DNA of 64,000 bases, taken from contig NZ_BAWN01000013.1 of NCBI RefSeq assembly GCF_000696225.1, positions 1 through 64,000 on the forward strand. Reading direction: 5' to 3'. The position numbers and the translations under genes are program-made. Of this stretch, positions 76 through 44,555 are shown in pieces. The stretch is from Serpentinimonas barnesii. Lineage in GTDB: Bacteria; Pseudomonadota; Gammaproteobacteria; Burkholderiales; Burkholderiaceae_C. The notes beneath the pieces were generated by a model, which saw only the letters and a program-made list of their open reading frames with translations, was not told the origin of the DNA and made no database searches. Position 1 is the first letter of the stretch, and every line of letters starts with the position of its first letter.

Positions 76-1695
76 TTATCCGCGGTGTGCAGCCGCCATG
101 AACTCGCGGGCGTTGCCCGTGTTCTTGGTCAACAGGCTCACCACAAAGATCGACAGCAGGGCCGCCGGCACGCCGTAGAGCGCTGGGTTGCCCAGCACGC
201 GGATGCCAGCAATCTCTGGCACGGCCGAGAAACGGGCGAAGGTGAAGGTCAGCGAGACGATCAGGCCCACCACCAAACCGGCAATCACGCCTTCTTTGGT
301 CAGACCAGTCCACCAGACCGACAGGATCAGCACCGGGGCGAAGGTCGAGGCAGCGATACCGAAGCACATGGCCACCAGGATGGCAACGTTCTGGTCTTTG
401 AGCCAGATCGAAGCCACCAAGGCGATCACGGTCAGCACGACGGCACCCATTTTGGCGAACGCCACACGCTCACGGTCGGTGCTGTTGGGGCGCAACACGC
501 CGGCATAGACGTCGTGCGACAGGCTGGTGGTCATGGAGATCAGCAGACCCACCGCCGTGCTCAGCATGGCTGCCATGGCACCGGCTGCGATCAGGCCCAA
601 CACCACTTCACCCCCTAGTGCCTGACCAAGCATGGGAATGGCCAAGTTGGTGGCTTGACCGCGCTGGCCAGCTTGCAGCATTTTGATCAACTCAGGGTAG
701 AGGATCATCATGGTGGCAAAGCCGACGAACAGCACCGCAACGTAGAACACCGCCAAGCCGATGATGGTGATTTCGGCACCTTTCTTGGCGTCTTTGGCGT
801 CTTTCACGGTGTAGAAGCGGATCAGGATGTGTGGCAGACCGGCTACACCGAGCAGCAGACCCAGCACCAGACTGACCTGGTTCCAGACGTCGGGGGTTGC
901 AACACCGGGTGTGAGCGCATTGGGCAGGTTTTCAAACCCGGCGCGGACCGCTTCGGCCAGCACAAACGGGCCGTAAGCGCCTTCGACCGCGGGCGGCACC
1001 ACCACTTGAGCCATCACCCCTACGGCAGCGGTGGGCGGAACGGTGTCCATGGCTTGGCTGATGATGGCAAAGGGGTTGCCACCAAAGTAAACCAGCGTTG
1101 CCAGCACGAACAGCAGCAGCATCGCCACCAACAAGATCACACCCTGAATGGCTTGGTTGTAGGTTGTGCCCATCATGCCACCCAGAATCACCATCAGGCC
1201 CATGATGATCGCCGAAACGAACACCGTGACCATGTAATCCCAGCCCAACAGCAACTGGAACAGGTGACCCGCACCCACGATCTGCGGCACCAGGTAGAGC
1301 GTGCCGATGACCACCGTGGTGAACATCGCCAGGAACTTCAGGCTGCGGCCGCCAAAGCGCCCGACCAGCACGTCACCGACGGTGAACTTGCCTGAGCTTT
1401 TCAGCGGGCCAGCCAGTGCCACCAGCACAAAAATCCAGGCGCCAAAGAAGCCGATGGCGATCCACCAGCTATCGATGCCAACCAGCGCAATCGCACCGGC
1501 CACACCCAGGAAGCTCGCCGCCGAGCAGTAGTCGCCAAACATGGCCCAGCCATTGAGGCGCGGGGAGATTTTGCCGCCAGCGACGTAGAAGTCGGTGGTG
1601 GTGGTGGTTTGTTTTTTGCCCCACCAACTGATGTAGACCACCAGTATCAAACTGACGACCAGAATGGCAAAGGCAATTGGGTTTTCAAAGTTCAT
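76..1695 (-). CDS. actP: cation/acetate symporter ActP
   Basis: This 539-residue polytopic protein belongs to the sodium:solute symporter family and is expected to import acetate and similar short carboxylates with a cation across the inner membrane. It has about 13 hydrophobic segments. The N-terminal DFYVAGG and GDYCSAASFLG stretches match the ActP/PutP signature region. The length fits ActP (about 550), although there is no cleavable signal like that of the E. coli protein. The start overlaps the stop of the small upstream membrane gene by 4 bp (ATGA), the usual arrangement for this permease and its partner. A double terminator follows. Acetate as substrate is inferred from the family. Confidence 0.87.
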   Translation of the reverse strand: MNFENPIAFAILVVSLILVVYISWWGKKQTTTTTDFYVAGGKISPRLNGWAMFGDYCSAASFLGVAGAIALVGIDSWWIAIGFFGAWIFVLVALAGPLKSSGKFTVGDVLVGRFGGRSLKFLAMFTTVVIGTLYLVPQIVGAGHLFQLLLGWDYMVTVFVSAIIMGLMVILGGMMGTTYNQAIQGVILLVAMLLLFVLATLVYFGGNPFAIISQAMDTVPPTAAVGVMAQVVVPPAVEGAYGPFVLAEAVRAGFENLPNALTPGVATPDVWNQVSLVLGLLLGVAGLPHILIRFYTVKDAKDAKKGAEITIIGLAVFYVAVLFVGFATMMILYPELIKMLQAGQRGQATNLAIPMLGQALGGEVVLGLIAAGAMAAMLSTAVGLLISMTTSLSHDVYAGVLRPNSTDRERVAFAKMGAVVLTVIALVASIWLKDQNVAILVAMCFGIAASTFAPVLILSVWWTGLTKEGVIAGLVVGLIVSLTFTFARFSAVPEIAGIRVLGNPALYGVPAALLSIFVVSLLTKNTGNAREFMAAAHRG

Positions 1696-1967
1696 GATTT
1701 ACCCCCTTTGTCTTGGTTCAGACACATGCGGGTCACCACCAAGCCGACGACGAACACCAGCGTGGCGGTGTAGAGCGCCAGCGGCAAGCCGAGGATTTCG
1801 ATCTGACCGATTTGCTTGAAGTCGCGCGTCGCGATCACGGCAGCCACGAAATACGTGACACAAAAAATGGCCAGTAGGCCCAGGGCCGCGCCAAGCTTGC
1901 GCTTGATCACGCCCTCGTCGTACACGACGCCGGGCGGTGCCGCGTCTTTCGTACTGGGGTTAGTCAT
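1692..1967 (-). CDS. small DUF485-like membrane partner of ActP
   Basis: This 91-residue protein has two hydrophobic segments, at about residues 25-48 and 57-80, and short charged ends. Small two-helix proteins of the DUF485 (YjcH) type are typically encoded immediately upstream of actP and are thought to assist or belong to the permease. The coding region overlaps actP by 4 bp. The start codon has a good ribosome binding site (AAAGGAA about 7 nt upstream). I lean to DUF485 over the similar DUF4212 family, but the two are hard to separate by eye. Confidence 0.78.
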   Translation of the reverse strand: MTNPSTKDAAPPGVVYDEGVIKRKLGAALGLLAIFCVTYFVAAVIATRDFKQIGQIEILGLPLALYTATLVFVVGLVVTRMCLNQDKGGKS

Positions 1968-2108
1968 GAATGGGTTCCTTTCTGGATCAGCCCGGGATGG
2001 GTCGAATCACACCTGAAACGGCGGCTTGCGCCACCGCGCCAGAACGCTGCCGCAAGAGGCCAAGCAACGCTCAGGCACGGACTGTCGAGCCCGATTCTTA
2101 CAGCCAAC

Positions 2109-2792
2109 TTATGAACACCACCCAAGTTCCCCGGTCCTAGGGTATGTCCTAGGAAACTCCTTGCAAAAAGCAAAGGAAACGGTAGTGCGCGGCCACGTAT
2201 CGGCCTGCGGGGTGGCGCCGGGGCTGGCCCCGTAGAGCCACTGGCAGGCCCGGATGACGCCAGCGTGGCAGAGCCAGACCACATCGCCCGGCCCATCCGA
2301 CGCCTGCTCGATCAGGGCCGCCTGCACGCGCTGCAGCAGTTGGCGCACCGACTCGCCCCCGCCCACGCGCGCATCAGCAAAATCGCGCACCCAGGCGTCT
2401 ACGGCGGCCTCGCCGATGTCGCTCCAGCGCCGCCCTTCCCAGACCCCGAAGTCGAGCTCGTCGAGCCGCGCGTCGGCGCCGCCGGGCTGCAGGTCGGAGC
2501 GCAAGGCCAACAGCTCTTGTGCCAGCAATCGGGTGCGCTGGCGCGTGCTGCTGCGCAGCCGTGCACCAGCAGGCAAACGGCTGGCCAGGCTGCGGGCCAG
2601 TTCTTGGGTTGCCAGCGGATCGGCCGGCCAATCGAGCCGCCCGTAGCAGGTGGCACTCGCCGGTTCCACCGGGCACAGCACGCTGGCATGGCGCACCAGC
2701 CACAGGCTGCCCTGGGCCGCTGCGTCAGGTGCGGGGGCGGGGGCGGGTGTGTGCGCGGCTTGCGGGGCCGGGCTGGCTGGGTTGGGCTTCAT
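2109..2792 (-). CDS. cobC: alpha-ribazole phosphatase (histidine phosphatase)
   Basis: This 227-residue histidine phosphatase is expected to remove the 5' phosphate from alpha-ribazole phosphate (or from adenosylcobalamin phosphate) in nucleotide-loop assembly. The catalytic LVRHASV motif is at about residues 33-39 and the second histidine is in LCHAGV near residue 178. The first 28 residues are a Pro/Ala-rich extension. The start at 2792 is the ATG 14 bp below cobS; a longer open frame upstream is only read-through over cobS. The last 15-20 residues (after WPRTTVSF) do not look like the family and are read from what appears to be the actP control region. Last gene of the corrinoid operon. 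Confidence 0.82.
   Translation of the reverse strand: MKPNPASPAPQAAHTPAPAPAPDAAAQGSLWLVRHASVLCPVEPASATCYGRLDWPADPLATQELARSLASRLPAGARLRSSTRQRTRLLAQELLALRSDLQPGGADARLDELDFGVWEGRRWSDIGEAAVDAWVRDFADARVGGGESVRQLLQRVQAALIEQASDGPGDVVWLCHAGVIRACQWLYGASPGATPQADTWPRTTVSFAFCKEFPRTYPRTGELGWCS
2135..2154. promoter_or_regulatory. candidate operator upstream of the actP operon
   Basis: The stretch TCCTAGGGTATGTCCTAGGA contains two CCTAGG hexamers 12 bp apart and an imperfect inverted repeat TAGGG-N4-TCCTA (2138-2151). It lies about 171 bp upstream of the small-partner start, and about 34 bp (centre to centre) upstream of a weak -10-like CATAAG on the minus strand (2108-2113), the spacing expected of an activator touching RNA polymerase. 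Similar sites lie near 32100 and 38291. It overlaps the 3' end of the cobC reading frame. The function is inferred. Confidence 0.45.
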
Positions 2793-31759: not shown

Positions 31760-31993
31760 TTAACGAGCCGGGGCAGCAGGAGCGGCAGGAGCAGCAGGAG
31801 CTGCAGCATCAGCCGGGGCAGCAGGAGCGGCCGGTGCTGGCTCAGGAGCCGGTGCCGGAGCAGGAGCCGGTGCTGGCTCAGGAGCCGGTGCTGGTGCCGG
31901 AGCAGGTGCGGGAGCCGGCGGGGTGGCTTGCGGGCCGCAAGCGGTCAGGGCGGCGGCGGCGAACAGGGCGGCGAGCAGGACGGAGATTTTCAT
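31760..31993 (-). CDS. small Pro/Ala-rich lipoprotein
   Basis: This 77-residue protein has a lipoprotein signal (MKISVLLAALFAAAALTAC, lipobox LTAC with Cys at 19). The mature chain of about 58 residues is almost entirely Pro, Ala and Glu: PAPAP runs broken by PEP, then PAAPA runs. The DNA is correspondingly repetitive (31770-31920, units resembling GGAGCCGGTGCTGGCTCA). It should sit in the periplasm as an extended, cell-wall-spanning or spacer polypeptide. No enzymatic domain is possible. It is monocistronic, with a terminator behind it, and has an operator-like site about 100 bp upstream. Real expression is likely but the function is unknown. Confidence 0.72.
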   Translation of the reverse strand: MKISVLLAALFAAAALTACGPQATPPAPAPAPAPAPAPEPAPAPAPAPAPEPAPAAPAAPADAAAPAAPAAPAAPAR

Positions 31994-32251
31994 ATGGTTT
32001 CAACTAGAAGGAGGTGGCGATCTGGGTTTTTGCCTCGGCACACACCTAGCCCACATTGCGAGCCCAAGGCGCAGCCACTGGCGGCTGGAATCGAAGGGTA
32101 AACCCTAAAATTTCCTAGCAGTCTTAATGATAATACAAAGCAGAAAAAGCCGCTGAGGCACGCAAAAAATTACCCCGGAAGGCCATGCATTGTTGCCAAA
32201 AAGCAACAAACTGGCCAACATGGGGCCACACAAGGGTTCTGCCCAAGCTTT
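31994..32251 (-). promoter_or_regulatory. upstream region of the Pro/Ala lipoprotein, with operator-like site
   Basis: This 258-bp gap holds no gene. At 32094-32107 is AAGGGTAAACCCTA, an inverted repeat (AAGGG-N4-CCCTA) that shares TAAACCCTA exactly with the site upstream of the TRAP transporter. A TCCTAG half-site follows at 32113-32118. The lipoprotein leader has no Shine-Dalgarno sequence; about 10 nt before the ATG it carries CCACCTCCTT, the sequence of the 16S rRNA 3' end itself. The roxA stop lies at 32252; no clear roxA terminator is visible. Confidence 0.45.
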
Positions 32252-34392: not shown

Positions 34393-36270
34393 TCAGCGCA
34401 CAGGTGCAGCCGGGCCGCCGCCTGCCGCACCGGGAGCGCCATCGCCAGACGCTGGGGCTGCGGGGGCGGCACCCCCGTCTGCGGGAGCGGCATCGGACGG
34501 CGCACCGTCGGCTGGGGCCCCATCGGCCGGGGCGGGTTCGTCCCACATGCCGGGGCCACCCCACTGGCCTTGATCCTGCTCCTGTCCCGGCTCTTGGTTT
34601 TCGGTTTCACCGGCCCCATGGAAGCCCGGGATTTGCTGCAAGCGCCGCTGCACCTCGGCCTCATCGGCCAGCTCCACCTGCTCGATCTGCCCCGTCACCA
34701 GGTTCGGGTAGGCAATCAGCGCACCCACCATCAGCACCTGCATCAGCACAAAGGCGATCGAGCCTTTGTAGATCTGCTCGGTGGTCACGCCGGCTATGCG
34801 TTTTTTGGTGATGGAGTCGAGGTAGTCGTTGCGCGGGGCCACGCTGCGCAGGTAAAACAGCGCAAAGCCAAACGGCGGGGTCAGGAACGAGGTTTGCAGG
34901 TTCATCGCCAAAATGACGCCAAACCAGACCAGGTTGATGTCGAGCATCTTGGCCACCGGCAGCAGCAGCGGCACCACGATGAAGGCGATCTCGAAGAAGT
35001 CGATAAAGAAGCCCAGCAGGAACACCAGCAAGTTGACGACCAGCAAGAAGCCAATCTGCCCGCCCGGCAGCCCATCGAACAAATCCTTGACCCAGATATG
35101 CCCGTCGGCGGCGTTGAAGGTGAAGCCGAACACGGTCGAGCCGATCAGGATGAACATCACGAAGATGGCCAGCCGGGCGCTGTTTTCCAGCGCCTGCTTG
35201 AGCAGCCCGAAGCTCAGGCGTTTGCGCGCCAGCGACATGATCAGCGCCCCCACGGCCCCCATGGCACCGCCCTCGGTTGGGGTGGCAATGCCCAGAAAGA
35301 TCGTGCCCAGCACCAAGAAGATCAGCACCAGCGGCGGAATCAGCACAAAGGTGACGCGCTCGGCCAACTTGGAGATCAGCCCCATGCGCAGGCCCTTGTT
35401 GGCCAAGGCCAGCACCAAGGCAACCAAGGCCCCCACGAGCATCGACATGATGAAAGTTTCGTCGGCCGGGGCGTCGGCAATGCGATCAAACCAGCGGTGC
35501 ATCATCTGGTTGTGCACCTGCGCCCAAGCGTAGCCGGCCAAGGTGGCCAATGCCATCAGCACGATCAGCGAGCGGTGCCCGCTGGAGCCATTGGGCTCGT
35601 TGTAGATGCGTGCCTCGGGGGGCAGCGGCGGCATCCACTGCGGCTTGACGATGGCAATGCCGATCACGAACGCCAGGTACAGGCCGATCAGCATCAGGGC
35701 CGGCAGCATGGCACCGGCGTACATATCGCCCACCGAAACGCCGAGCTGGTCGGCCAGCACGATCAGCACCAGCGAGGGCGGCAAAATCTGCGCCAGCGTA
35801 CCCGAAGCGGTGATGGTGCCGGTGGCTATGGGCCGGTTGTAGCCGTAGCGCAGCATGATGGGCAGCGAGATCAGGCCCATGGAGATCACCGCCGCCGCCA
35901 CCACGCCGGTGGTCGCCGCCATGAGGGCGCCGACCAGCACCACTGCCACCGCCAAGCCGCCGTGCAAGGGACCAAAGACTTGGCCCACGGTTTCGAGCAA
36001 GTCCTCGGCCATGCCGCTGCGCTCGAGGATGATGCCCATCAGGGTGAAGAAGGGAATGGCCAGCAGAATTTCGTTCTGCATGATGCCAAACACGCGCAAG
36101 GGCAGGGCTTGGAACAGGGTGGCGGGGAACAGCCCCAGCTCCATGCCGAGCAAGCCAAACAGCAAGCCCACGGCCGAGAGCGCAAACCCAACCGGAAAGC
36201 CGGTGAGCAGGAAAAATATCAGCCCCAGAAACATCAGGGGCACAAAGATGCTGATGATGAATTCGATCAT
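34393..36270 (-). CDS. dctM: TRAP transporter large permease subunit
   Basis: This 625-residue DctM-type subunit forms the membrane translocation domain, using an ion gradient. It has about 12-14 hydrophobic segments. [18 protein letters not shown] at the N-terminus, [25 protein letters not shown] and [24 protein letters not shown] are family hallmarks. The long form (over 550 residues) resembles the mannitol/chloroaromatic and 2-oxoacid type (FcbT3-like). The last 70-75 residues form a disordered, acidic then Pro/Ala/Gly-rich tail not typical of the family. It overlaps dctQ by 4 bp. Confidence 0.9.
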
Positions 36271-36902
36271 GACTTGCGACCCCCATGAGCCAGCGCAGCC
36301 GCAGCCGCATCGCGTTCGACGCGGTCGTGCTCGGCCAAGGCAATTTCGCGCGCCAGTTGTTGCACGTCGCTGGAAACCCCTTGCGCCAGCGCATCGGGCC
36401 CGCCGCAAAAGAGGAAATTAAAGCGTTTGATGAGCTCAGAAACCGCCTGCAGCGCCAGCAAGGCAAAGCCGGCCGGGATCAACAAATAGGCAGGCCAGCG
36501 GATCAGGCCGCCGGCGTTGGGCGACATTTCTCCGGTATTCCAAGCGCGCTCGAACACCGGCCAACCCAAGGTTATGAGCAAATAGCACAGCGGCAGCAGA
36601 AACACCAAAATGCCGACGATATCGATCCAGTTGCGCGTGCGCGCCGTCAGGCGGCTGGAGACCACGTCGATGCGCACGTGGGCGTTGCGCAAAAAGGCAA
36701 AACCAGCGCCAAGCAAAAACACCGCACCAAACAAGTACCACTGGATTTCCAGCCAGGCGTTGGAGCTGATGCTCAGGGCGTAGCGGCTGATGGCGTTGGC
36801 GGTGCTGATCAGGACGATCAGCAAAATCAGCCACATCGCCACCTTGCCGACGGCCTCGTTGAGGGCGTCGATGGCGCGCGAAAAAAGCAGGAGGTATTTC
36901 AT
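36267..36902 (-). CDS. dctQ: TRAP transporter small permease subunit
   Basis: This 211-residue DctQ-type subunit has four hydrophobic helices. LEIQWYLFGAVFLLGAGFAFLRNAHVRIDV is the DctQ signature. The extended C-terminal cytosolic part (about residues 165-211) is rich in Ala, Arg and acidic residues. It overlaps dctM by 4 bp. A terminator-like hairpin separates it from dctP upstream, so dctQM expression probably depends on partial read-through. Confidence 0.9.
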   Translation of the reverse strand: MKYLLLFSRAIDALNEAVGKVAMWLILLIVLISTANAISRYALSISSNAWLEIQWYLFGAVFLLGAGFAFLRNAHVRIDVVSSRLTARTRNWIDIVGILVFLLPLCYLLITLGWPVFERAWNTGEMSPNAGGLIRWPAYLLIPAGFALLALQAVSELIKRFNFLFCGGPDALAQGVSSDVQQLAREIALAEHDRVERDAAAAALAHGGRKS

Positions 36903-37032: not shown

Positions 37033-38175
37033 TCACAGGCGGTTGTTGCGGCCCTGCAGCTGCATGTAGCTGTCGAAGCTGGCCTCGGCCAAGCCGTGCC
37101 ACAGCACCTGGTCGCGGCGGAAGGCGATCTGGTGGTCGTAGAGCTTCTTCCAGCGCGGGTTGGTGGCGTTGAGCTCCTCGTACAGCGAGTGCGCGGCACG
37201 AAACGCCGCATCCATCACCGAACGCGGGAACGGCTGCAGGCGCGTGCCGCCAGCCACCAGGCGCTTGAGCGCGGCCGGGTTGAGGGCATCGTAGCGCGCC
37301 AGCATGGTGGTGTGGGCCAGTGTGGCCGCTTGGTTGACGATCGCCTTGTACTCGGGGGAGAGGGCGTTGAAGGCGGCCTTGTTGACCAGCAGGTCGAGCT
37401 GGGTGCCGGCTTCCCAAAAGCCTGGGTAGTAGTAGAACGGGGCCACGCGGTGAAAGCCCAGTTTTTCGTCGTCGTAGGGGCCCACGAACTCGGCGCCGTC
37501 CACGGTGCCGCGCTCCAGCGCCTGGTAGATCTCACCAGCCGGCATGGCCAGCGGCACCATGCCCATGCGCTCAAGCACCCGCCCAGCAAAGCCACCGGCG
37601 CGGAAACGCACGCCCTGCAGGTCGGCTGGGGTGCGGATTTCACGGCGGAACCAGCCACCCATTTGCACCCCGGTGTTGCCGCAGGCGAAGTTGACGAGGT
37701 TGAAGGTGTCGAGCAGTTCGCGGCTCAAGGCCAGCCCGCCGCCTTCAAAGAACCAGGAAGTCATCTGGCGCCCGTTGAGGCCAAAGGAGATGCCGCCATT
37801 GGCCAGAGCCAAGGCGTCGTCTTTGCCGAAGAAGAAGTAGGTGGCGGTGTGGGCGGCCTCGATGGTGCCGGCTTGGGCCGCATCGAACACACCCATGGCG
37901 GGCACCAACTCGCCAGCCGGGTGGGTGCTAACTTGGAACTTGCCGCCGGTGGCGTCGGAGACGGCCTTGGCGAACACTTCGGCCGCACCCCAGATGGTGT
38001 CGAGCGCACGCGGGAAGGTCGAGGCCAAGCGCCAGCGCACGGTCTCGCCAGTGATAACCGCGGGGGCTGCGGGGGCGGCGGCCGGGGCCGCAGCCTGTTC
38101 GCGCGGGCCGCAAGCGGCCAGCAAGCCTGCTACACCAACTGCGCCAGTGCCGGCGATGATTGAGCGACGATCCAT
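37033..38175 (-). CDS. dctP: TRAP transporter substrate-binding protein, TakP-like
   Basis: This 380-residue binding protein has a twin-arginine motif (MDRRSII) and, in the same leader, a lipobox (LLAAC, Cys at 22) followed by an Ala/Pro linker, suggesting a Tat-exported lipoprotein. The mature part matches the TakP/FcbT1 group: WRLASTFPRALDTIWGAAEVF, the substrate arginine region GVRFRAGGFAGRVLERMG and the marker GAEFVGPYDDEKLGF with APFYYYPGFWEAG. TakP-type proteins bind 2-oxoacids or lactate; the exact ligand is unknown. A good GGAG binding site precedes the ATG. Confidence 0.87.
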   Translation of the reverse strand: MDRRSIIAGTGAVGVAGLLAACGPREQAAAPAAAPAAPAVITGETVRWRLASTFPRALDTIWGAAEVFAKAVSDATGGKFQVSTHPAGELVPAMGVFDAAQAGTIEAAHTATYFFFGKDDALALANGGISFGLNGRQMTSWFFEGGGLALSRELLDTFNLVNFACGNTGVQMGGWFRREIRTPADLQGVRFRAGGFAGRVLERMGMVPLAMPAGEIYQALERGTVDGAEFVGPYDDEKLGFHRVAPFYYYPGFWEAGTQLDLLVNKAAFNALSPEYKAIVNQAATLAHTTMLARYDALNPAALKRLVAGGTRLQPFPRSVMDAAFRAAHSLYEELNATNPRWKKLYDHQIAFRRDQVLWHGLAEASFDSYMQLQGRNNRL

Positions 38176-38254: not shown

Positions 38255-38298
38255 ATTGTAGGACCCGCGCGCAACGGGATTTGGCCGTGTAAACCCTA
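38255..38298 (-). promoter_or_regulatory. candidate promoter and operator of the TRAP operon
   Basis: A TACAAT -10 (38255-38260, minus strand) lies about 80 bp upstream of dctP. Centred 34 bp above it is CCGTGTAAACCCTA (38285-38298), whose right half CCCTA and spacer TAAA match the site upstream of the Pro/Ala lipoprotein; the left half is degenerate. The distance suits an activator binding near -43. Confidence 0.45.
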
Positions 38299-38346
38299 GT
38301 GACAGACGCCGCCGGCTGAAAAAATATCAAACCTCAAAACCCGCAT

Positions 38347-42853: not shown

Positions 42854-42986
42854 GGGGTGAGGGGTGCGCTAAGGGAAAACCCGTACCCATGAGGCCTCAA
42901 GGGAAATGGGCTGATATTGGTCTATGATTAAGCAAACGCATCTGCCTTGCTCCAGCCACTCCCATCCACTCTCAGCCACTGCCGCC

Positions 42987-44555
42987 ATGCTCAACCGCTT
43001 CACCATCACACGCCGCGTCTGGCTGGCCCTGATTCTTTATTTGTTCCTGTTTGCACTCACGTTCAGTGCGGCCTTGCTAAGCCTAAACGCGGCGCGCGCA
43101 AGCCTTGAGCTCGTACACAGTGAGCGCATGGCCACCTCCAATTCGCTCAAGACCCTGCGCAGCAACTACCTGCACAACCGCATCGAAGCGCTGCTGATGT
43201 TTCAGCACGCCCCCGACAGCCCCACGCTGGCCCTACACGGGCACCCTATCACGCTGCACTTTGACAACATCCGCGCCGGCCGCGCTGCCAACGATGCCGC
43301 CTTGAAGCAAATCAGCGAGCGCAGTGTGTCGCCCGAAGAGCAGGCCCTGATCGACGACATGCTGGCCAAGCGCCGCGCCTGGCAGGGCAAGCGCGACCAG
43401 TTCCTAGAGGCGCTGCGCAACAACGATTTCTCGGTTCCCACCATGCAGTTTCTGCTGGTCGCCGGGCGCACCGAAGGGTTGGCCTTTGAGCGTGCGATTG
43501 TGGCGTTGTATGAACATCAAACCCTCATGGCAGCGGCTGAAACCACCGCCGCCGAGCGCCGCTACCGGCTCAACCAGGCCCTGCTCGTGGGCATTTTTCT
43601 GTTCGGTGTTGTGCCCATCAGTTGGTTTCTGATTGCTGCCATGCGCCGCATGTCGCGCGGGCTCGATCACGCCAAGCGCAACGCGGCCAGCATTGCCAGC
43701 GGCGACCTGAGCCAAGAAATCCCGCCCCAGCGCGGCAACGACGAAATTGCGCACCTGCTCACCCAACTGCGGTTGATGCAAGACAGCCTGCGCCAGCTCA
43801 TCCGCCAGGTGCTTGGCGCCGCCGACGCCATTGCCAGCGCCTCGGCGCAGGTGGCGGGTGGCACGCAGGATTTGTCGCAACGCACCGAGCAGCAGGCCAG
43901 CTCGCTGGAGCAAACCGCCTCGGCCACCGAAGAGCTCAACAGCACCGTGCGCCAAAACGCCGCCAGCGCGCAGCAAGCCAACCAGATGGCCGACGAAGCC
44001 AGCGGCGTCGCCAGCCGCGGTGGGGCCGTGGTAGCACAGGTGGTGGGCACCATGGAGCAAATTCAAAGCTCCTCGCGCAAGATCGTGGACATCATCAGCG
44101 TGATCGACGGCATCGCTTTCCAAACCAACATCTTGGCGCTCAACGCCGCCGTGGAAGCGGCGCGCGCGGGCGAGCAAGGGCGCGGCTTTGCCGTGGTGGC
44201 CTCTGAGGTGCGCAGCCTGGCCGGGCGCAGCGCCGAAGCGGCACGCGAAATCAAGGCCCTGATCAACGACTCGGTGAGCAAAGTCGGCAGCGGCACCGAA
44301 CAGGTGGGCGAAGCCGGCCATACCATGGAGCAAATCGTGACCAGCATCGGGCGCGTGACGCAAATCATGCGCGACATCGCCGCCTCCAGCGCCGAGCAAG
44401 CCGAAGGGCTGGGCCAGATCAACAGCGCCGTGGCGCAAATGGACGGCGTAACCCAACAAAACGCCGCCTTGGTCGAGCAAGCCAGCGCCGCCGCCGCCTC
44501 GCTGCGCGATCAGGCGCAGCATCTGACCGAGCTGATGGGGCGGTTTAAGATTTGA
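42987..44555 (+). CDS. methyl-accepting chemotaxis protein
   Basis: This 522-residue transducer has a first membrane helix (about residues 10-33), a periplasmic four-helix-bundle-type domain (to about residue 185), a second helix, a HAMP domain ([23 protein letters not shown]) and a long signalling coiled coil. Its tip reads [40 protein letters not shown]. It has no CheR-binding pentapeptide; it ends LMGRFKI. An in-frame ATG at 42924 would add 21 polar residues; I prefer 42987, where [15 protein letters not shown] matches the family. No other chemotaxis genes are nearby. Confidence 0.9.

Follow-up and report, generated by a model that had tools for sequence, protein, structure and literature searches.

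In gammaproteobacteria, the ACTU motif of the CrbS/CrbR (MxtR/ErdR) system is an N4-centred dyad near the -35 element of actP and other uptake genes, and the published CrbR sites resemble TACGACTAAAGTC and are of the GAC-N4-GTC type, as given in the available part of PMC5715377. The pyruvate symporter gene mctP of Sinorhizobium fredii, an alphaproteobacterium, is under response-regulator control, and the RpuR element in its promoter is an imperfect direct repeat (PMC9100948, available text). In Burkholderiales, the FadP regulon includes a beta-oxidation operon headed by fadP (excerpts of PMC5343134 and PMC12543098).

The window analyzed here takes in the initial 64 kb of contig C82 in a genome of 2.49 Mb and 94 contigs; its G+C content is 67%, and assembly completeness is estimated at 100%. 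Gene content and relatives suggest that the genome belongs to Burkholderiales. Three dyads lie in it, upstream of an actP unit (site 1), a small lipoprotein-like gene (site 2), and dctP (site 3). They share with the ACTU motif the N4 centre and a place near the -35 of actP and other uptake genes; however, their half-sites read TAGGG / CCCTA where that motif has TAcGAC / GTC, and the GAC-N4-GTC inverted repeat was not found at the window sites, which read GGG-N4-CCC. The RpuR system is alike in its symporter target, but the element here is a dyad rather than a direct repeat. The fadP-headed operon also has our dyad in some genomes, whereas what fadP promoters share is another dyad, ACGAYCGTTC, which we derived here from the promoters themselves.

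All three strings to which the sequence-only reading had drawn attention were found in place, and the word that it gave as common to sites 2 and 3, TAAACCCTA, is borne out by the sequence. We consider it probable, at roughly 60%, that all three sites represent a single cis-element conserved in Burkholderiales, approximately CTAGGG-TWWA-CCCTAG, read by a putative dimeric DNA-binding protein. The view that the sites before carbon-uptake genes form one regulatory class appears to stand, supported by matrix ranking and by conservation. As far as sequence goes, this is a conserved operator with a putative regulon, and it is more general than a reader of the window could know.

The three dyads and their promoters

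The sites and the genes they precede are as follows; bit scores are those of the matrix described at the end of this section.

2137 to 2152, minus strand: site 1, CTAGGACATACCCTAG on the gene strand (18.3 bits, window rank 2)
2120 to 2125, minus strand: candidate -35 of actP, TTGGGT, 17 bp upstream of the candidate -10 (from sequence)
2108 to 2113, minus strand: CATAAG, the actP -10 of the sequence-only reading, with weaker support
2097 to 2102, minus strand: candidate -10 of actP, TGTAAG, 42 bases past the dyad centre (from sequence)
1692 to 1967, minus strand: gene for a yjcH-like small membrane protein, first in the actP unit (orthologues by tblastn)
76 to 1695, minus strand: actP, sodium:solute symporter of the acetate/monocarboxylate type (PF00474)
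32093 to 32108, minus strand: site 2, TTAGGGTTTACCCTTC on the gene strand (19.7 bits, window rank 1)
31760 to 31993, minus strand: small Ala/Pro-rich lipoprotein-like gene of about 77 codons (from sequence; start region conserved in three of three species)
38284 to 38299, minus strand: site 3, CTAGGGTTTACACGGC on the gene strand, with one strong and one weak half-site (12.8 bits, rank 4)
38255 to 38260, minus strand: -10 of dctP, TACAAT, without a recognisable -35, 31 bases past the dyad centre (by eye)
37033 to 38175, minus strand: dctP, TRAP solute-binding protein (PF03480)
34393 to 36902, minus strand: dctM and dctQ, TRAP permease genes downstream of dctP (dctM above its NCBIfam cut-off; dctQ by eye, from position and sequence)

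The dyad centres lie 177 bp upstream of the start of the yjcH-actP unit, 107 bp upstream of the lipoprotein start, and 116 bp upstream of dctP. We compared the genome itself (G000) with two further species of the genus, G073 and G100: sites 1 and 3 occur in all three species and site 2 in two. For site 1, each species has the block TTTCC(T/C)AGGACATACCCTAGG between diverged flanks, and the same is true of CTAGGGTTTAC at site 3, whose spacing to TACAAT is identical in all three. Site 2 is present in G100 and missing in G073, which has TAGGGTTATCCC elsewhere within that region.

The sequence-only reading had placed the site centre about 34 bp from a -10-like box at both actP and dctP. This holds at dctP, where TACAAT is found in three of three species, but not at actP, where TGTAAG is favoured over CATAAG because GTAAG recurs, within one base of the same position, in five actP promoters: the three of the genus and those of L046 (a Tepidimonas sp. 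MAG) and L037 (a Burkholderiales bacterium MAG). It starts 43 bases downstream of the dyad centre in the window, G100, G073, and L046 and 42 bases downstream in L037, and CATAAG is missing at the equivalent spacing in L046 and L037.

The actP product matches the NCBIfam ActP and MctC models, both under the cut-off, and a Pfam search with the yjcH-like protein gave no match. Few family genomes encode an ActP of this type (3 of 90 at E <= 1e-150), and the window protein is 87% identical to its counterparts in two Silanimonas MAGs; together, these two observations may indicate horizontal transfer or contamination. In a PDB sequence search, the dctP product matched 2hzk best and also matched the ketoacid-binding protein 7ug8. 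The lipoprotein-like gene consists of consecutive repeats rich in Ala, Pro, and Glu.

Two features count against a single element: site 3 has only one good half-site, and site 1 differs in its centre and extends into coding sequence. The overlapping frame is a histidine phosphatase ORF (2109 to 2792) upstream of actP, which ends within the actP promoter region. Its final codons run over site 1, so coding constraint may contribute to the conservation there; the C-terminal FPRTYPR that they encode is identical in all three species. On impression, the conserved codons AGG, ACA, and CCT look atypical of so G+C-rich a genome. It is conceivable, though we regard it as doubtful, that sites 2 and 3 represent the family element and that site 1 is a separate, actP-specific one. 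The core of site 1 is GGACATACCC and not GGGTWWACCC, and a second actP copy on contig C65 (83% identity) has a degenerate counterpart, TTGGGTCATGCCCTAAG, with a different spacer and a score of 8.2 bits. On the other hand, site 1 reaches its 18.3 bits with a matrix drawn from other genera, and in L046 and L037 the canonical form occupies its position: their actP promoters carry CCGTGTTTACCCTAG and CCGTGTTTTCCCTAG, respectively, at the same distance from GTAAG as in the window. These two promoters tie site 1 to the canonical form, and their sites also match the form of site 3. By eye, no dyad was seen in seven other ActP loci (L033-L036, L038-L040).

How far the pattern departs from chance depends on how strictly it is drawn. 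The genome-wide enrichment check suggested in the sequence-only reading gave no excess with the literal TAGGG-N4-CCCTA (TAGGGNNNNCCCTA at up to two mismatches: 412 matches versus 587 for the reversed control in the genome, and 14 in the window versus 11.5 in shuffles), nor did TAGGGTNNACCCTA at up to three mismatches (8 in the window versus 5.6 in shuffles). TAGGGTTWWC, with 17 occurrences across the genus versus 15 for its control, is not over-represented either; its five matches in the own genome include one at ahpC and one within a LysR-type gene, and only three fit. The stricter (C)TAGGGTWWACCCTA(G) form of the dyad, in contrast, is clearly non-random by matrix ranking and simulations. The best three TAGGGTWWACCCTA matches in the 64 kb are the three sites, with 1, 2, and 3 mismatches, and the next match has 4.

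For the matrix, 16 bp wide and symmetrised, we took 36 sites in LysR and FadP promoters, all from other genera. It ranks site 2 first, site 1 second, and site 3 fourth in the window. Since the training promoters were located using the window's own word, this ranking involves circularity, which is full for site 2, partial for site 3, and smallest for site 1. The window holds four matches of at least 12.8 bits versus a mean of 0.14 in 200 Markov-simulated windows, none of which (0/200) had three or more. Five further stretches of the own genome (41 kb around GerE genes) contain no match of at least 8 bits.

Occurrence in the genome and in the family

Three copies of TAGGGTTTAC exist in the own genome, namely site 2, site 3, and one on contig C71. 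The following further copies were found through matching and are hence not independent evidence.

C71: copy before a small protein gene (26.8 bits)
C88: copy flanked by an AraC-like gene (by eye) on one side and a Peripla_BP_6 ABC operon on the other (18.6 bits)
C89: copy before a sugar-type ABC operon (16.9 bits)
C74: copy before a tetR-fadE-fadB-fadA-like operon (16.3 bits; apart from TetR and acyl-CoA dehydrogenase, genes named by eye)

The C71 dyad sits between TTGGCA and TAAGAT, an arrangement kept in G073, and the gene order at C88 resembles that at the family locus L143. We had considered the C71 gene as a phasin and dropped this assignment: Pfam and NCBIfam gave no match, and the product resembles 146-aa proteins encoded beside LysR genes. 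Those proteins are not DUF1127 by Pfam (one tested).

Across 100 family genomes, the exact word TAGGGTTTACCC has 62 copies in 41 genomes, at most 4 in any one, versus 12 copies of the reversed word. Outside the genus, 53 of 59 copies touch no called gene, compared with 508 of 2,459 composition-matched control words (21%) at the same loci (p 6e-30) and 68 of 244 control words with an equal number of stop frames (p 3e-23); genes were called with a home-made caller that misses some, and the control excludes 150 bp around the sites. A looser version of this test, which includes five sites of the genus, gives 63 of 64, the strict figure being 53/59. The element class is non-random, mostly intergenic, and conserved before actP, dctP, and the lipoprotein gene (the last in two of three species). 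We found no report of exact TAGGGTTTACCC in a literature search, and searches by combinations of words returned nothing on the element by title among the matches listed.

Many of the neighbouring genes, although not all, import or burn organic or fatty acids. They include acetyl-CoA hydrolase/transferase (L064, L124; L052 by eye), DctP (L125, L128), periplasmic binding proteins (Peripla_BP_6 in L057 and L138; L143 by eye), GntP (L129), CitMHS (L131), a 4HBT thioesterase (L060), an acyl-CoA ligase (by eye) beside a Crp-type regulator (Pfam) at L072, and FadP-type TetR genes (L071, L145, L147, by eye). Chemoreceptor genes (L051; L133 by eye) and DUF3563 genes (L055, L134) are each found twice. 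Off the carbon theme are an RNase (L146), Fic (L073), GNAT (L066), DUF3422 (L130), a Na/H antiporter (L054), a pyrophosphatase (L127), and others; 7 of the 59 copies have no called gene inside 350 bp. This is not a full functional tally: Pfam was run on 35 of the 40 listed nearest genes (all except L067, L071, L075, L145, and L147), and 7 of the 35 had no family at threshold. A LysR-type gene adjoins 13 of the 59 copies, and 12 of these genes are alike by eye. Most are divergent from a small protein gene; two of the small proteins were tested and had no match in Pfam.

The TetR gene that heads the beta-oxidation operon is found in 94 of 100 family genomes and holds this position in all four examined (own, G073, G024, and G057), and its identity fits FadP as described in the accessible parts of PMC5343134 and PMC12543098. 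Among 30 fadP promoters, from loci collected by tblastn anchoring, TAGGGTWWWCCCTA is matched in 8 at up to two mismatches and in 13 at up to three, and the other 17 have no match within three mismatches. The dyad is present in the own genome (three mismatches), G073, G089, G057, G024, and others, and lies upstream of TTGACA/TTGACG by 31 bases (own, G073, G089), 29 bases (G057), or 18 bases (G024). The ACGAYCGTTC dyad, located near the -10 and common to 28 of the 30 promoters, is likely the FadP operator, so the GGG/CCC dyad there would be a separate upstream element; the exact word ACGAYCGTTC does not occur in the promoter regions of the three window sites. Several fadP promoters (L159, L164, L166, L167, and others) have a CTAGA-like word pair between the dyad and the -10.

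Mode of action and candidate regulators

An activator role had been proposed for the sites, and the spacings are compatible with it. The dyad would act mainly as an activator site, with its centre at about -43.5 at dctP, -54.5 at actP, -65.5 at fadP, and -33.5 at the family LysR genes, relative to presumed starts that were counted by hand (first -10 base taken as -12) in promoters read by eye. These centres step by about one helical turn, which would keep the bound protein on one face of the DNA and argues for activation; the dyads at L153 (about -63.5) and L154 (about -52.5) also fall near helical steps. Where the dyad lies between the -35 and the -10, as at the C71 gene, its position suggests a repressor site. 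Judging by its 6-N4-6 shape and by known examples, we guess that the dyad could be read by a response regulator of the GerE/FixJ type or by a protein of the Crp/Fnr type.

More tentatively, we propose that a family-wide global regulator of organic- and fatty-acid uptake in Burkholderiales reads CTAGGG-TWWA-CCCTAG. It might activate importers and beta-oxidation from helically phased sites at about -43, -54, and -65, and repress or tune the fadP operon, LysR, AraC, and an aceE-linked kinase pair from within their promoters, as a top-level carbon switch that replaces Crp- or CrbR-like control. Such a regulator was not met in the literature searched. Were acetate-type symporters, TRAP importers, CoA-transferases, and beta-oxidation all under one switch, that switch would be a candidate for the family's main carbon control. 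The conserved site would be a direct bait for its binding protein, making control of carbon uptake without a visible CrbR testable; if the sites are several unrelated elements, their value falls to that of ordinary promoter annotation.

One candidate for the binding protein is the histidine kinase / FixJ-type response regulator pair encoded divergently from aceE (L220 5100-5360, G000 C92; aceE by eye). The kinase is widespread (97 of 100 family genomes), the own regulator is FixJ-like (224 bits versus a cut-off of 255), and GGGTTTTCCC lies upstream of the kinase gene in four genomes (own, G073, G089, and G041). However, only 4 of 30 kinase promoters contain GGGTWWWCCC, which argues against general autoregulation, and the own copy scores 3.9 bits by the matrix. 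We regard this pair as an unlikely reader of the site.

It is quite improbable that the element has no regulator of its own and is a feature recognized by RNA polymerase, such as a composite -35/-10 or a spacer signal. In the LysR promoters the word does overlap a TTWACC/TTAACA -35, with a TATATT roughly 17 bp further along (by eye), and of the 59 family copies, 6 have TANNNT immediately behind CCC and 14 have it no more than 3 bases away. Most copies, though, have no TANNNT box, and at actP, dctP, and fadP the dyad is at or upstream of the -35, at varying distances and with a separate -10; moreover, a sigma-factor site is not expected to be a dyad. By eye, most LysR promoters (L190-L219) also have ATTCAC near GTG after the TATATT box, which may be the LysR protein's own operator.

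We consider it very unlikely that the site is bound by the LysR-type regulator encoded beside many copies, or by FadP, even though 27 of 30 LysR promoters contain a match that outdoes roughly 95% of shuffles and the fadP operon promoter carries the dyad in several genomes. The flanking-type LysR is present in 69 of 100 family genomes, but neither G000 nor G073 has a match at E <= 1e-60, despite the sites that persist there. The dyad is of even length, unlike the T-N11-A box of LysR proteins, and for FadP, the word shared by nearly all fadP promoters is a different one, as described above.

It is highly improbable that the sites are chance look-alikes picked out by eye, or repetitive palindromes such as REPs. 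The loose patterns without enrichment would suit the former, and GGGTTTACCC lies within a REP of Pseudomonas putida GB-1 in the available part of PMC2817692; among the matches listed in a search for GGGTTTACCC/GGGTAAACCC, the sole paper on a bacterial genome, to judge from its accessible text, concerns REPs. Yet conservation amid diverged flanks, the matrix ranking, and the intergenic bias all speak against chance, and four exact copies or fewer per genome are well under REP copy numbers. For the class, this reading is refuted, while it is possible for single sites, above all site 3.

Least probable of all is CrbR/ErdR, the regulator named in the sequence-only reading: an acetate-type symporter is among the targets and both motifs are N4-centred dyads, but the half-site differs, and ErdR-like and CrbS-like proteins were not found in the genome, so that this reading is largely refuted to the extent that the assembly is complete. 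None of its five GerE-domain proteins approaches the NCBIfam ErdR model (NF041830, cut-off 390), three of them scoring 59.8, 58.2, and 55.6 bits and the other two not having it among their best 25 models. A CrbS, that is, an SLC5 symporter joined to a histidine kinase, was not seen: the three SSF frames, of 540, 545, and 715 aa, are too short, and Pfam gives SSF only in the 540- and 715-aa frames (the two that were run).

In favour of CrbR, its predicted targets in P. fluorescens include chemotaxis genes, as listed in the available part of PMC5715377. The remaining high-scoring match to our matrix in the window precedes a chemoreceptor gene.

42870 to 42885, plus strand: fourth candidate site, TAAGGGAAAACCCGTA, intergenic (13.4 bits, window rank 3)
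42987 to 44555, plus strand: gene for a methyl-accepting chemotaxis protein, downstream of the fourth candidate (PF00015, PF02203, PF00672)

This candidate lies about 110 bp upstream of the chemoreceptor gene, and the alignment to G100 stops just before it. In the relative G085 (L051), an exact TAGGGTTTACCC is likewise located upstream of a chemoreceptor gene.
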